From: a virus
IMG/VR virus record: IMGVR_UViG_3300009176_000051
Coordinates: 1 to 39,410 of that record
Reading direction: 5' to 3' (one strand)
Length of the DNA: 39,410 nucleotides
Below the pieces are notes generated by a model. It was given only the letters and a program-made list of their open reading frames with translations, did not search any database and had not been told where the DNA came from. Both the position numbers and the translations under genes were made by a program. Numbering within the stretch: the stretch's first letter is position 1; every line of letters starts with the position of its first letter. Of the stretch, positions 1-4,404 are shown piece by piece.

Positions 1-1059
1 CCCGTGTTTGTTCCCCCGCTTGCGTCGGGACGTCGCCGATTCCGTCCCACCCGTCGGCGTCTTCGGCGTCGGGAGCAGAGGCTCGAGCGCCTCCGGGAGC
101 GTCACCGAGCGTCGGCCCCTGTCCCCTTCGTGGCGGCGCGAGTCGATCCTCGTCTGGTCGATCGCGCTCGACGACGGACGACGGCCGAGCCACGCTTCTG
201 GCGTCGGCAGCAATGCCTGGGGGAGCGACTGGCCGCCCTCGCGACTGGCGAGATCCCTGCCCTTCCAGTCTCTGGCCGCCGGGGTCGGAAGTTGGCGGAT
301 CGTCTGGTTCAGCGAGTCCGGCTGGCCCCTGTGGTTGCCCGCGTCGAACCCCTCCGTCCTCGGCGTCGGCAACGTCCGGCCCTTGTTCGGTCTCCCGCGG
401 GAATCCACGCCCGTTCCGTTCCGCCGACTGGGACCGAGCGTGATCTGCGCTCTCAGTTCCCCGCCCGCCCCTGGATTCGCTGGGTTCGCCATCGGCGTCC
501 TGAGCGAGGATGAAGATTCGCTCGCGGCGGTGGGGCGCTCCGACATCGGAAGCGCGAACGCTTGTCCACGTCGCGTCATACCCGAGGTCGGCCAGCGTTC
601 CCAAGACCTCGGAAAACGCTCGTCCTCCGTTGACAGTAAGGAGACCTGTGACGTTCTCCACGAGGACAAGGCTGGGTCGTAGCTCGCCAACGATACGGGC
701 GAAGGCAGGCCAAAGCCAGCGGTCGTCGTCGGTGCCCCGCCGGCCTCCTGCTTGACTGGCTGGCTGGCAGGGGAATCCTCCGATGATGAGGTCAACTCTC
801 GCACCACCACTCCGAGCGGTTCCCCCGCTCCGTTGCCGTTGATCCCCTTCGCCTTCAGGATCTGCTGACGCGCTCGCCAGGTGGACGGATCGTCGTAGTT
901 CGTCGCTCCCGCGTTCGGTGTCGGCAAGAGTCTGTCCGCTCGCACCACGTCCGTCAGGCTCGTGCCGGGATGCGCTCCCGACCCCGGCAGGTTGCGGGAT
1001 CCCGATGACTTCCCGTCGCCCGCTGTCGGCGTAGGAAGCAGCGGTGAAGTCGTGGACAT
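1..1059 (-). CDS. Overlapping same-strand frame with LPTP repeats (candidate second product)
   Basis: The +1 frame of the methyltransferase gene is open for all 353 codons from ATG 1059 to the window edge; an in-frame ATG at 1116 is an alternative start. It encodes seven spaced copies of a (L)LPTP-like motif, for example LLPTPTAGDGKS, LLPTPNAG, LPTPRTEGFD and LPTPAARDWKG, plus a segment reading SWRTSQ followed by WPTSGM. Each LPTP copy (CTG CCG ACG CCG) is read as Ala-Asp-Ala or similar in the methyltransferase frame. Third positions in the repeat regions are mostly G/C in this frame and much less so in the methyltransferase frame, which argues that this frame is or was translated there. From memory, such LPTP proteins occur next to or fused with phage C5 methyltransferases. 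It could be a separate protein, the result of a frameshift, or the true C-terminal half of the enzyme. Confidence 0.45.
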   Translation of the reverse strand, partial: MSTTSPLLPTPTAGDGKSSGSRNLPGSGAHPGTSLTDVVRADRLLPTPNAGATNYDDPSTWRARQQILKAKGINGNGAGEPLGVVVRELTSSSEDSPASQPVKQEAGGAPTTTAGFGLPSPVSLASYDPALSSWRTSQVSLLSTEDERFPRSWERWPTSGMTRRGQAFALPMSERPTAASESSSSLRTPMANPANPGAGGELRAQITLGPSRRNGTGVDSRGRPNKGRTLPTPRTEGFDAGNHRGQPDSLNQTIRQLPTPAARDWKGRDLASREGGQSLPQALLPTPEAWLGRRPSSSAIDQTRIDSRRHEGDRGRRSVTLPEALEPLLPTPKTPTGGTESATSRRKRGNKHG

Positions 1060-1210
1060 CTCTCCATCGTCGGACGGACGGCCAGTGTCGCTCGAGGACC
1101 CGGGAGCAGTGGTCATCGTTCTCGACCTGACCGACGCAGCGGTAGCCGAGAGACTCGACCGCGAGATCCAGACCGCCGATCCCGCTGAACAGACTGAGGT
1201 ACGTCGGCAT
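1..1210 (-). CDS. C5-cytosine DNA methyltransferase, 3' end cut by window edge
   Basis: This protein would methylate cytosine at C5 in DNA, probably to protect phage DNA from host restriction. The visible 403 codons contain motif I LFSGIGGLD (residues 7-15), the catalytic motif IV GGFPCQ (144-149, Cys148), motif VI ENV (185-187) and motif VIII HRRERIF (227-233). ATG at 1210 is preceded by AGGAGG six bases upstream, which fixes the start. Two low-complexity inserts break the fold: residues about 60-138, and everything after about 237, where the target-recognition domain should be. Motifs IX and X lie beyond the left edge or are absent. In both inserts the +1 frame has the more phage-like codon usage (see the overlapping entry). 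It is the last visible gene of the early leftward operon. The family is certain from the motifs; specificity cannot be read. Confidence 0.9.
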   Translation of the reverse strand, partial: MPTYLSLFSGIGGLDLAVESLGYRCVGQVENDDHCSRVLERHWPSVRRWRDVHDFTAASYADSGRREVIGIPQPAGVGSASRHEPDGRGASGQTLADTERGSDELRRSVHLASASADPEGEGDQRQRSGGTARSGGARVDLIIGGFPCQPASQAGGRRGTDDDRWLWPAFARIVGELRPSLVLVENVTGLLTVNGGRAFSEVLGTLADLGYDATWTSVRASDVGAPHRRERIFILAQDADGEPSESRGGRGTESADHARSQSAERNGRGFPRETEQGPDVADAEDGGVRRGQPQGPAGLAEPDDPPTSDPGGQRLEGQGSRQSRGRPVAPPGIAADARSVARPSSVVERDRPDEDRLAPPRRGQGPTLGDAPGGARASAPDAEDADGWDGIGDVPTQAGEQTR

Positions 1211-1301
1211 GCACTTCCTCCTGGTCATCGTTGTCGTTGAGCCACAGGCCGGTGAGGTACAGGAATCGTTCCGCCGGCGTCAGCCGGTAGAGATCCCTCA
1301 T
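1113..1301 (-). CDS. Hypothetical 62-residue protein
   Basis: ATG at 1301 overlaps the stop of the upstream gene in an ATGA junction, which is the usual gene join in this operon. The first 30 residues (start MRDLYRLTPAERFLYLTG) look like a normal folded protein. The last half is Arg-rich and overlaps the start of the methyltransferase by 98 bases, so its tail may be only the shadow of that gene. No family recognised. Confidence 0.55.
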   Translation of the reverse strand: MRDLYRLTPAERFLYLTGLWLNDNDDQEEVHADVPQSVQRDRRSGSRGRVSRLPLRRSGRER

Positions 1302-2564: not shown

Positions 2565-2752
2565 CCGATAGCCGATCTGATGCCCGGGGAGAGCTTCACG
2601 ACGGCGCCGCCGCAGCCGTGTTCCCAGACGCAGTCGCGCATGATCGGTGAGCAGAAGTTCTTGCGGCACTTCTCGCAGGGCCGGCGGACCTCACCGAGCT
2701 CGAGTTTGCAGAGCGCGCATGTCGGGACGCGGTACTTCTTCACCGGCTTCAT
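2561..2752 (-). CDS. Cys-rich zinc-finger-like protein, 63 aa
   Basis: ATG at 2752 overlaps the upstream stop by four bases (ATGA). The protein contains CALC, CEKC, then single Cys residues and a final HGC: seven Cys and one His within about 40 residues. This would fit two zinc sites of a RING- or treble-clef-like mini-domain. The spacing CxxC-x(10)-CxxC-x4-C is clear in the sequence; the function is not. It is transcribed with the SLOG-domain gene directly upstream. Confidence 0.75.
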   Translation of the reverse strand: MKPVKKYRVPTCALCKLELGEVRRPCEKCRKNFCSPIMRDCVWEHGCGGAVVKLSPGIRSAIG

Positions 2753-3108
2753 ACGAAGAAGACCTCCAGGTCTTTGTGATGCTCCAGCGCGAGATCGATG
2801 GTGAGCTTCGTGCCCAGGCTCTGGCCGTCCCAGAACGCCGTGACGTGGTCGGCGTGCTTGACCATCGCCTTGTTCCGCAGGAAGCCCGCCTGCTTGCCGT
2901 CTCGCTCCCAGTCGGCGTCGAAGCGGATGAACGGGATCTCGTTGGTCTTCGCTGCCTCCTCGGCGGCACGGTCGACGCCGCGAGCGCCACCGGAGATGAT
3001 GCAGTCGGGAGCGTGACCCTCCCTGACGAGGTACGCCACGTAATTCCACACCATCGCTGCGGCTGCGTCGGTGATGTCCCGCGTCCCCACGATCGCGACG
3101 GTCTTCAT
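2749..3108 (-). CDS. SLOG-superfamily (DUF2493/YspA-like) nucleotide-binding protein
   Basis: This 119-residue Rossmann-like protein starts MKTVAIVGTRDI, with a first strand and phosphate-binding loop (VGTRD). It has the SLOG signature ISGGARGVDRAAEEAA and a C-terminal GFLRNKAMVKHADHV segment followed by FWDG. These match DUF2493 proteins common in phages. The SLOG superfamily binds nucleotides or nucleotide-derived ligands and includes DprA and LOG hydrolases. In defence systems SLOG domains sense signal nucleotides, so a phage copy could act on nucleotide metabolism or on such signals; that role is inference. It overlaps both neighbours by four bases. Confidence 0.85.
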   Translation of the reverse strand: MKTVAIVGTRDITDAAAAMVWNYVAYLVREGHAPDCIISGGARGVDRAAEEAAKTNEIPFIRFDADWERDGKQAGFLRNKAMVKHADHVTAFWDGQSLGTKLTIDLALEHHKDLEVFFV

Positions 3109-3314: not shown

Positions 3315-3706
3315 TCGACCTCGTCCAACGCGTGCAGGCCAGTGAGTCCGAACTTCTTCTTCAGGCGAGGAGACACCTTGGCGACGATGGCGCGCTCTTT
3401 GTTCGTCGCGACGTTCGCCAGCCAGTCCTGGAACGACATCGGCTGGTTCGCACCGAGGAGTTGCGGTCGCTTCTCGTCGTCGAGTTCCTTCTGCTTACGC
3501 TCCTTGCGGTGAGGCTCCGACATCTCCTTGATCCGCTGTGCCGTCGGGGGGTAGCCGCCGACCGCCGCGATCTCGTCGATGGCCGCCATGGCATCCTCGA
3601 TCTCGACCCCCTCGAGGACGCGGTCGAAGATCAGCAATTCCCCGTCATCGAGTTCGCCACGGAACGTGCCAACCCAGTACGCCGCGATCGCCCTGCTGTT
3701 CTTCAT
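3311..3706 (-). CDS. Candidate helicase-loader / G39P-like replication protein
   Basis: This 131-residue protein has an N-terminal helical domain of the pattern AYWVGTFR, then a block ending in AIDEIAAVGGYPPTAQRI. The layout of aromatic, spacer helix, Ala-rich helix and PPTA-type turn is that of the phage G39P N-terminal family (helicase loader/inhibitor). The C-terminal half is basic and polar. It starts immediately after the winged-helix initiator gene (TGATG overlap), which is where SPP1-like phages place the loader. The assignment is from pattern recall and context, not an alignment. If correct, it would deliver the host DnaB-type helicase, because no phage helicase is seen here. Confidence 0.5.
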   Translation of the reverse strand: MKNSRAIAAYWVGTFRGELDDGELLIFDRVLEGVEIEDAMAAIDEIAAVGGYPPTAQRIKEMSEPHRKERKQKELDDEKRPQLLGANQPMSFQDWLANVATNKERAIVAKVSPRLKKKFGLTGLHALDEVE

Positions 3707-4404
3707 CAGCCCTCCACCGCCTGTCTCATCAGTTCGCCCATCTGGCTGACGCGTTTGGGTCGACTGCGTCTCACCGGAAGCGGATCATCGTTCCAGCGTT
3801 CCTGGTTCAGCCACGTCGTGGGGTGAAGCGTGAACCCGTCCTCGCGGTTGGGGTCGTCGCGGTAACGGATCGCCCCGGCCACGATGGTCTCGAGGTCGGT
3901 CTTCCGAAGCGCCTTATCCAAGGCCTTGGTGGCCCTCGCACGGTCCTGGTGTCGGGGGTACACACTCCAGAACATGTCGAAGAATGTGACCTCGCTCAGA
4001 ATGCTTTTCTCTCGTTCAACTGGCTCTAGTTCTAATGGCTCTAGTTCTTGGTGCCGCATCTGTGCGGCCCCCCCCGCCGCATCCATGCCCCTACCCCCCG
4101 CCGCATCTGTGCGGCCCCCCGGCCGCAGGATGTAGTCATTCGACGTTTGGCGGTCGTCCTCGACATGCCGGTGTTTCACCTCCACGGCACCGATCTCCAC
4201 GAGTTCCTTGAGCGAGCGGTCGATGGTGTCGGGTGAGCATCGGAGTCGCTTGGCGAGCGCGCGTCGGCTTGGGTGCGCGTGCTGTGTGTCCTTGTCCGCG
4301 TACCGGTGAAGGACGCAGTAGAGCCGGACGGCCTGAGCGGACACATCCGAGTCCAGGAGCCACTCAGGGACGATGGCGAACGGTAGGGAGTTGCGGATCG
4401 TCAT
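3706..4404 (-). CDS. Winged-helix replication initiator (DnaD/O-like)
   Basis: This 232-residue protein has an N-terminal winged helix (residues about 10-95) with HTH signature RRALAKRLRCSPDTIDRSLK. Then comes a low-complexity linker (GGRTDAAGGRGMDAAGGAA, then ELEPLELEPVE) and a C-terminal domain containing FFDMFWSVYPRHQDRARATK and HPTTWLNQERW. The latter two are hallmarks of phage replisome-organiser/DnaD-type proteins. The linker is encoded by iteron-like DNA repeats, so origin recognition could take place inside its own gene, as with lambda O. It lies just upstream of the loader candidate. The ATG at 4404 overlaps the upstream stop. Confidence 0.8.
   Translation of the reverse strand: MTIRNSLPFAIVPEWLLDSDVSAQAVRLYCVLHRYADKDTQHAHPSRRALAKRLRCSPDTIDRSLKELVEIGAVEVKHRHVEDDRQTSNDYILRPGGRTDAAGGRGMDAAGGAAQMRHQELEPLELEPVEREKSILSEVTFFDMFWSVYPRHQDRARATKALDKALRKTDLETIVAGAIRYRDDPNREDGFTLHPTTWLNQERWNDDPLPVRRSRPKRVSQMGELMRQAVEG
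4021..4048. repeat. Tandem 13-bp repeat TGGCTCTAGTTCT, A/T-richer patch
   Basis: TGGCTCTAGTTCT occurs at 4021-4033 and 4036-4048. It encodes the repeated ELEP of the initiator linker. It is richer in A/T than its surroundings and directly adjoins the GC-rich iteron block, the arrangement expected of an unwinding element next to initiator-binding sites. Confidence 0.6.
4053..4130. repeat. Iteron-like array inside the initiator gene (candidate replication origin)
   Basis: GCCGCATC begins at 4053, 4076 and 4100, and a degenerate copy (GCCGCAGG) at 4122, giving spacings of 23, 24 and 22 bp, about two helical turns. The first and third copies extend to a perfect 21-bp repeat (4053-4073 and 4100-4120). 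This contains the small palindrome CCGCA-TCTG-TGCGG followed by a C-run. Regular spacing, an internal palindrome and placement within the winged-helix initiator gene match iteron origins of the lambda O type. Binding is inferred. Confidence 0.55.

Follow-up and report, generated by a model that had tools for sequence, protein, structure and literature searches.

A phage C5 cytosine methyltransferase gene and the genes related to it appear to hold a second gene in the +1 frame of the same strand, whose product would be built from LPTP-type cassettes. From sequence comparison, we regard the conservation of this nested gene as close to certain for the family and as well supported for the viral DNA analysed here. 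On this evidence both frames code for protein, and in relatives the nested frame has an internal start and carries methyltransferase motifs IX and X. The methyltransferase frame is called A below and the nested frame B; we think it rather probable, by analogy with known two-polypeptide enzymes, that B is a second subunit, which carries the target-recognition region and is the partner of the catalytic A.

Two open frames in the viral contig

The stretch of DNA analysed, referred to as the window (39,410 nucleotides), is IMGVR_UViG_3300009176_000051, positions 1 to 39,410, a linear viral contig with its left end at base 1, and genes for a portal, a major head protein and a tape measure are among those it carries. 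Frame A runs on the minus strand from 1228 to 2 (409 codons) and is open into the contig edge; because the sequence stops there, at base 1, the window gives no reading of motifs IX and X. Frame B is free of stops from 1224 to the edge (408 codons), which gives 372 codons from the ATG at 1116 and 353 from the ATG at 1059. A first-pass annotation, made from the letters alone, had described A as a C5 methyltransferase with motifs I, IV, VI and VIII and B as a +1 frame open to the edge with seven LPTP-type motifs, and in all of this it was right: A matches PF00145, all four motifs were located, and seven L[PR]TP motifs are found in B, six LPTP and one LRTP, starting at 1038, 927, 504, 372, 291, 210 and 75 (Table 1). 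Separate database searches with the two proteins, a check that the annotation had put forward, lead to PF00145 for A and to phrog_1008 for B. Near the methyltransferase, on the minus strand, are matches to phrog_289 (labelled GTP-binding domain; 2749-3108) and phrog_270 (replication initiation protein; 3706-4404).

Table 1. Features of the two overlapping frames at the left end of the window.
Feature	Position	Strand	Evidence
Frame A, C5 cytosine methyltransferase catalytic part, ATG 1228 or 1210, open at edge	2..1228	-	PF00145 E 2.6e-40; ORF
Motif I (LFSGIGGLD), frame A	1166..1192	-	motif located
Frame A insert between motifs I and IV; two cassettes in frame B	797..1045	-	homologue alignment; third-position G+C, B 0.77 vs A 0.59
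Motif IV (GGFPCQ), frame A	764..781	-	motif located
Motif VI (ENV), frame A	650..658	-	motif located
Motif VIII (HRRERIFIL), frame A	506..532	-	motif located
Frame B, nested cassette protein, +1 to A, open at edge	1..1116	-	phrog_1008 E 2.3e-25; shuffle tests
Frame B candidate start ATG 1059 (uncertain); alternative ATG 1114-1116	1057..1059	-	M at same place in L010, L018; only 2 bases 3' of its GGAG
Cassette 1, frame B	928..1038	-	
Cassette 2, frame B; type shared with cassettes of L057, L214, L246	793..927	-	
Conserved N-terminal block of B proteins (YDPxxSSWRTSQ...WPTSGMTRRG...SSSS); WPTSGMTRRG at 565-594	505..696	-	L010 identity
Cassette 3 (LRTP), frame B	373..504	-	
Cassette 4, frame B; near-identical one in L018	292..372	-	
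Cassette 5, frame B	211..291	-	
Cassette 6, frame B	76..210	-	
Cassette 7, frame B, truncated by contig edge	1..75	-	

Alignment with homologues shows about 80 extra residues in A between motifs I and IV, and two of the cassettes of B lie within this insert; the other five lie past motif VIII. The seven L[PR]TP motifs compare with a mean of 0.3 in 3000 permutations synonymous for A, none of which reached seven. Frame B is as open as observed in only 1.3-1.9% of A-synonymous shuffles (P 0.013-0.019), and frame A in 0.02-0.06% of B-synonymous shuffles (P 0.0002-0.0006). In G+C by codon position, the motif I part has the pattern of A (0.82 at A third positions); the insert, where the first-pass annotation had already seen the G/C-richer third positions of B, and the stretch past motif VIII have that of B (0.84 at B vs 0.64 at A third positions in the latter), and the stretch between motifs IV and VIII is mixed (B 0.71, A 0.67). 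In that IV-VIII overlap, B is identical to the B of its relative L010 at 74 of 98 positions; shuffles of A gave a mean of 40.9 and a maximum of 54 (n=500).

Layouts of related loci

About 250 related loci were gathered from viral contigs and bacterial genomes, using the tail (A4) and core (A3) alignments as search queries; the alignment of whole B had no sufficiently conserved stretch. In several annotated mycobacteriophages and Gordonia phages, the pair takes the form of two overlapping or adjoining 'DNA methylase' genes; genes 69/70 of mycobacteriophage Ovechkin are a split pair. Read in all frames, such split loci have motifs I-VIII in A and the cassettes together with motifs IX and X in B, and in several of them frame A stops soon after motif VIII. 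All motifs stand in one frame in the prophage prophiT49-1. For 198 pairs of core and tail, the two are in the same ORF in 129, B is in +1 in 64 and in +2 in 4, and one has a stop between them; B is thus in +1 in 64 of 68 split loci.

The same-ORF class can be divided into 'fused-A' loci, with the cassettes mostly in +1 and the tail in frame 0, and 'fused-0' loci, with the cassettes mostly in frame 0. Motifs I to X lie in one A ORF in 54 fused-A loci, and B stops there shortly before the tail. L010 belongs to this type and has motifs IX and X in A, and the lineage of the window probably has them there as well, past the contig edge. Many Actinobacteria and their phages carry the cassettes in frame within the enzyme, between motifs VIII and IX, which by its place among the motifs is the position of target recognition. 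The earlier suggestion that the LPTP segments form a modular target-recognition region stands as far as this position goes; that the cassettes would themselves act in recognition is a prediction from it.

Several loci depart from these layouts. The B ORF of L056 and L058 goes on beyond motif X, with a further LPTP cassette after the methyltransferase tail, and L004 (2661-2873), L019 and L025 have an extra cassette of the KGGPNQRGS type in +2, followed by a stop. L031 and L034 carry a different frame A insert between motifs VI and VIII (ADDERSRWNRICALIDSK...), and +1 is still open beside motif VIII. In L105, the +1 frame has no LPTP and has a canonical-looking motif IX (RRLTPVECERLQGLPDGWTDI), apparently another type of split. 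The methyltransferase frame of L018 is broken between VI and VIII and resumes in +1, by decay or sequence error. The methylase gene of Streptococcus phage 5093 (L260, 1303-2262) contains a 143-codon +1 ORF without LPTP, and its A has canonical motifs IX and X.

Selection on both frames

Over the last 60 core codons of 173 loci, the +1 frame has 2 stops vs 230 expected; upstream of the start of B it has 440 vs 411 expected, and the +2 control has 295 vs 370. A further 48 viral C5 methyltransferases have 0 stops in +1 vs 77 expected, and the depletion holds in loci of 41-50% G+C. The two stop tests covered 221 loci, and the nested frame persists in nearly all of them. This share is for these loci; the catalytic core is present in 1557 phage records, and several other C5 methyltransferases have no nested frame. 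No depletion of +1 stops is seen in other C5 methyltransferases, namely an E. coli and a Klebsiella plasmid enzyme and that of Thermus phage P74-26 (6, 8 and 2 stops vs 4.3, 4.2 and 3.5 expected). Among the places opened in plasmids, we found no EcoHK31I-like restriction-modification system with a nested frame, two small plasmid systems were without one, and a search with B likewise gave none. The first-pass annotation had named frequent interruption of B beside an intact A as the pattern that would speak against its proposal; B is seldom interrupted, and it is A that is broken, after motif VIII, in split relatives.

The middle region of frame A has 0 stops vs 115 expected in fused-A loci and 562 vs 554 in split loci; the zero for the fused-A loci is partly built into the definition of the class, yet only one locus with its tail in frame 0 has an intervening stop. 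Four-fold sites at 'LADLG' of A that lie under Pro/Gly of B differ in 3% of comparisons vs ~65% at most other sites, and of 54 fused-A loci, 47 have the highest G+C of the middle region at third positions of B. A recurring LPTPRATDGTKGGPNQRGSSGDLMLPSAV-like cassette is found in relative frames 0, +1 and +2, and in each group examined 60-86% of the differences among its copies are at third positions of the cassette. Because cassettes might have moved between contexts, pairs of the same layout were compared too, and here 60% of the differences between fused-A pairs fall at third positions of B (9 pairs, 16 loci). The cassette types of the insert between motifs I and IV occur after motif VIII in other loci, which supports, for this insert, the proposal of the first-pass annotation that the inserts are an acquired repeat that stays open in both frames.

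The start of frame B

Candidate starts of B cluster at two places, a GTG at 34 codons and an ATG at 41-42 codons ahead of the Pro in 'WP.SG'. With the GTG type, a serine of A is coded by AGT in 31 of 37 G+C-rich loci vs 19 of 347 other core serines, and the arginine of A just upstream by AGA/AGG in 36 of 42 vs a background of 41 of 533; this arginine codon spells AGGGG or AGAGG 7-8 bases before the GTG. With the ATG type, the ATG is at 'DD/ND' of A in 41 of 50 loci, and many have AAAGGA or AAGGGA a few bases upstream. Frame A alone is no explanation for these codon choices. The usual start site holds no ATG in the window, where B must start further upstream, since two of its cassettes sit in the I-IV insert of A; its start is perhaps ATG 1059, which has counterparts in the relatives L010 and L018 but is poorly spaced for a Shine-Dalgarno sequence, its GGAG being only 2 bases away.

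A +1 frame that is almost free of stops from a fixed point, a conserved start with a Shine-Dalgarno-like sequence, and cassettes that vary at the third positions of B together argue that B is a nested, independently started gene. Of the readings offered by the first-pass annotation, the one in which two proteins are made from one stretch is thus well supported, with a conserved B protein that in relatives has its own start and Shine-Dalgarno-like signal and that appears in almost all related loci.

The end of B and its predicted structure

In relatives, the C5 motifs are divided between two polypeptides in more than one way, with IX and X in B in the split loci and an IX-like end of B in another group. 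In this phage group, B ends 'LNPxWVEWLMGFPxGWTDL' and A reads 'RVAHGVPxRVDRLxxLGNAVVPQ' from the same DNA, with motif X in A. Profile comparison links the 'EWLMGFP' end of B with the split-locus tail (E 3e-7); against canonical motif IX, the match of this end is weak (E 0.046), and that of the split tail has E 0.002. In L008, L009 and L013, as in that group, the same DNA gives 'RVADGVPxRVDR...GNAVVPQ' in A and 'EWLMGFPxGWT' in B, as if motif IX had switched frames between groups.

For a fused enzyme, the AlphaFold model is confident over core and tail, and M.HhaI structures rank first among its matches in the PDB; over most of the cassette region of the same enzyme pLDDT is <50, and for a B protein alone the prediction is poor. 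PADLOC gives methyltransferase models for A and none for B. Searches with Pfam-type profiles, PHROG and PADLOC found no match of frame B to nuclease families, including HNH.

Comparison with known systems

The small polypeptide of the methyltransferase M.EcoHK31I is coded in another frame inside the large one. As described in PMC3404938, this enzyme (YGGCCR) has motif IX in the smaller polypeptide and I-VIII and X in the larger, which also holds the predicted recognition domain. Compared by description, the group above, whose A holds motif X and whose B ends in a motif-IX-like sequence, is alike in this division; in contrast, the cassettes here are in B and not in the larger polypeptide. M.AquI (CYCGRG) is likewise given there as a two-polypeptide C5 methyltransferase with motifs divided between the polypeptides, but that description includes no cassette array, and the window type probably keeps IX and X in A. 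An ORF out of frame in a phage methylase is also known from ShiLan, where it encodes an HNH endonuclease and is a patchily distributed insert (PMC11855218); as here, the methylase frame stays open, whereas B is built from cassettes, near-universal in its clade and without a nuclease match. PHROG 1008, labelled DNA methyltransferase, matches frame B of the window and of its relatives, and the label is silent on a nested second frame. Paenibacillus phage Diva has g49/g50 annotated as a DNA-cytosine methyltransferase and a 'g49 internal gene', with no function or family given. Our literature searches found no description of a nested LPTP family, within a limited library; an earlier description is possible.

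A proposed two-polypeptide enzyme and its alternatives

Frame A encodes the catalytic part of a phage C5 methyltransferase, and we suggest that frame B, from its internal start in +1, would give a second polypeptide made of the conserved N-terminal block and the array of LPTP cassettes. In the predicted complex, B would supply A with the recognition region, formed by these cassettes of varying number and type, and the outcome may be a changeable phage methylation pattern, useful for example against host restriction. In the lineage of the window, the cassettes in the I-IV loop would be translated by A too, as a tolerated insert. That B is produced, forms a complex with A and serves recognition by its cassettes, and what purpose this has, we infer from the sequences compared above. 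Two points make the second-subunit reading the best one: many loci have IX, or both IX and X, in B, and M.AquI and M.EcoHK31I divide their motifs similarly.

Several points count against a second subunit: the nested +1 ORF of phage 5093, which has no LPTP and lies beside an A with canonical motif IX; the weak match of the end of B to canonical motif IX; the low confidence of structure prediction over the cassette array; and the poor Shine-Dalgarno spacing at the start of B in the window. A alone might also work, since it keeps IX and X in the 54 fused-A loci and in the probable type of the window. A could then be complete as a methyltransferase, its linker disordered, and B an independent small protein that shares its DNA and has its own job, for example as a regulator or an anti-restriction factor. 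The phage 5093 ORF favors this, as do the fused-A loci, L010 among them, with I to X in one ORF and a B that ends before the tail; however, the same cassettes continue into IX and X within the B of split loci, and elsewhere they stand in frame between VIII and IX. We judge a separate function of B unlikely overall, and it is the main rival for the window's own type.

The remaining explanations have considerably less in their favor. A single polypeptide made by a +1 frameshift from A to B after motif VIII, the fusion that the first-pass annotation had also considered, would fit the +1 position of B in 64 of 68 split loci and the stop of A shortly past VIII in several; it is unsupported, and quite improbable, because B has an internal start with a Shine-Dalgarno-like sequence, lying well before motif VIII, and is conserved and free of stops from there on, and in fused-A loci the shift would drop motifs IX and X. 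Still less probable is an out-of-frame mobile insert of the kind published for ShiLan as a homing element (PMC11855218). The cassettes do have two locations in this lineage, and relative to the core they stand in all three frames, but B is present in nearly all related loci, with methyltransferase motifs in many, and we rejected an HNH homing insert as B has no nuclease family match. Hardly credible, finally, is a chance open frame in G+C-rich DNA with B untranslated: this contig is G+C-rich and has many long alternative frames, but the shuffle tests and the stop depletion in loci of 41-50% G+C led us to reject it, and the codon choice at the start of B is also against it.

Implications

If B is indeed a second subunit, what has been described for very few enzymes (M.AquI, M.EcoHK31I) would turn out to be common across a single large group of methyltransferases from phages and prophages. 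It is possible, though we put this forward tentatively and as short of probable, that many phage C5 methyltransferases draw their specificity from a nested gene of exchangeable cassettes, so that the gain, loss or move of a cassette would retarget methylation and leave the enzyme intact, the other frame of the cassettes being a tolerated linker in the catalytic subunit. Since both frames, where annotated, are often labelled 'DNA methylase', prediction or cloning of one frame could miss half of the enzyme. The loci also offer many testable cases of gene overlap on one strand in which the internal start is conserved, over about 40 to 75% G+C, and their cassette arrays might explain how phages shift their methylation pattern.
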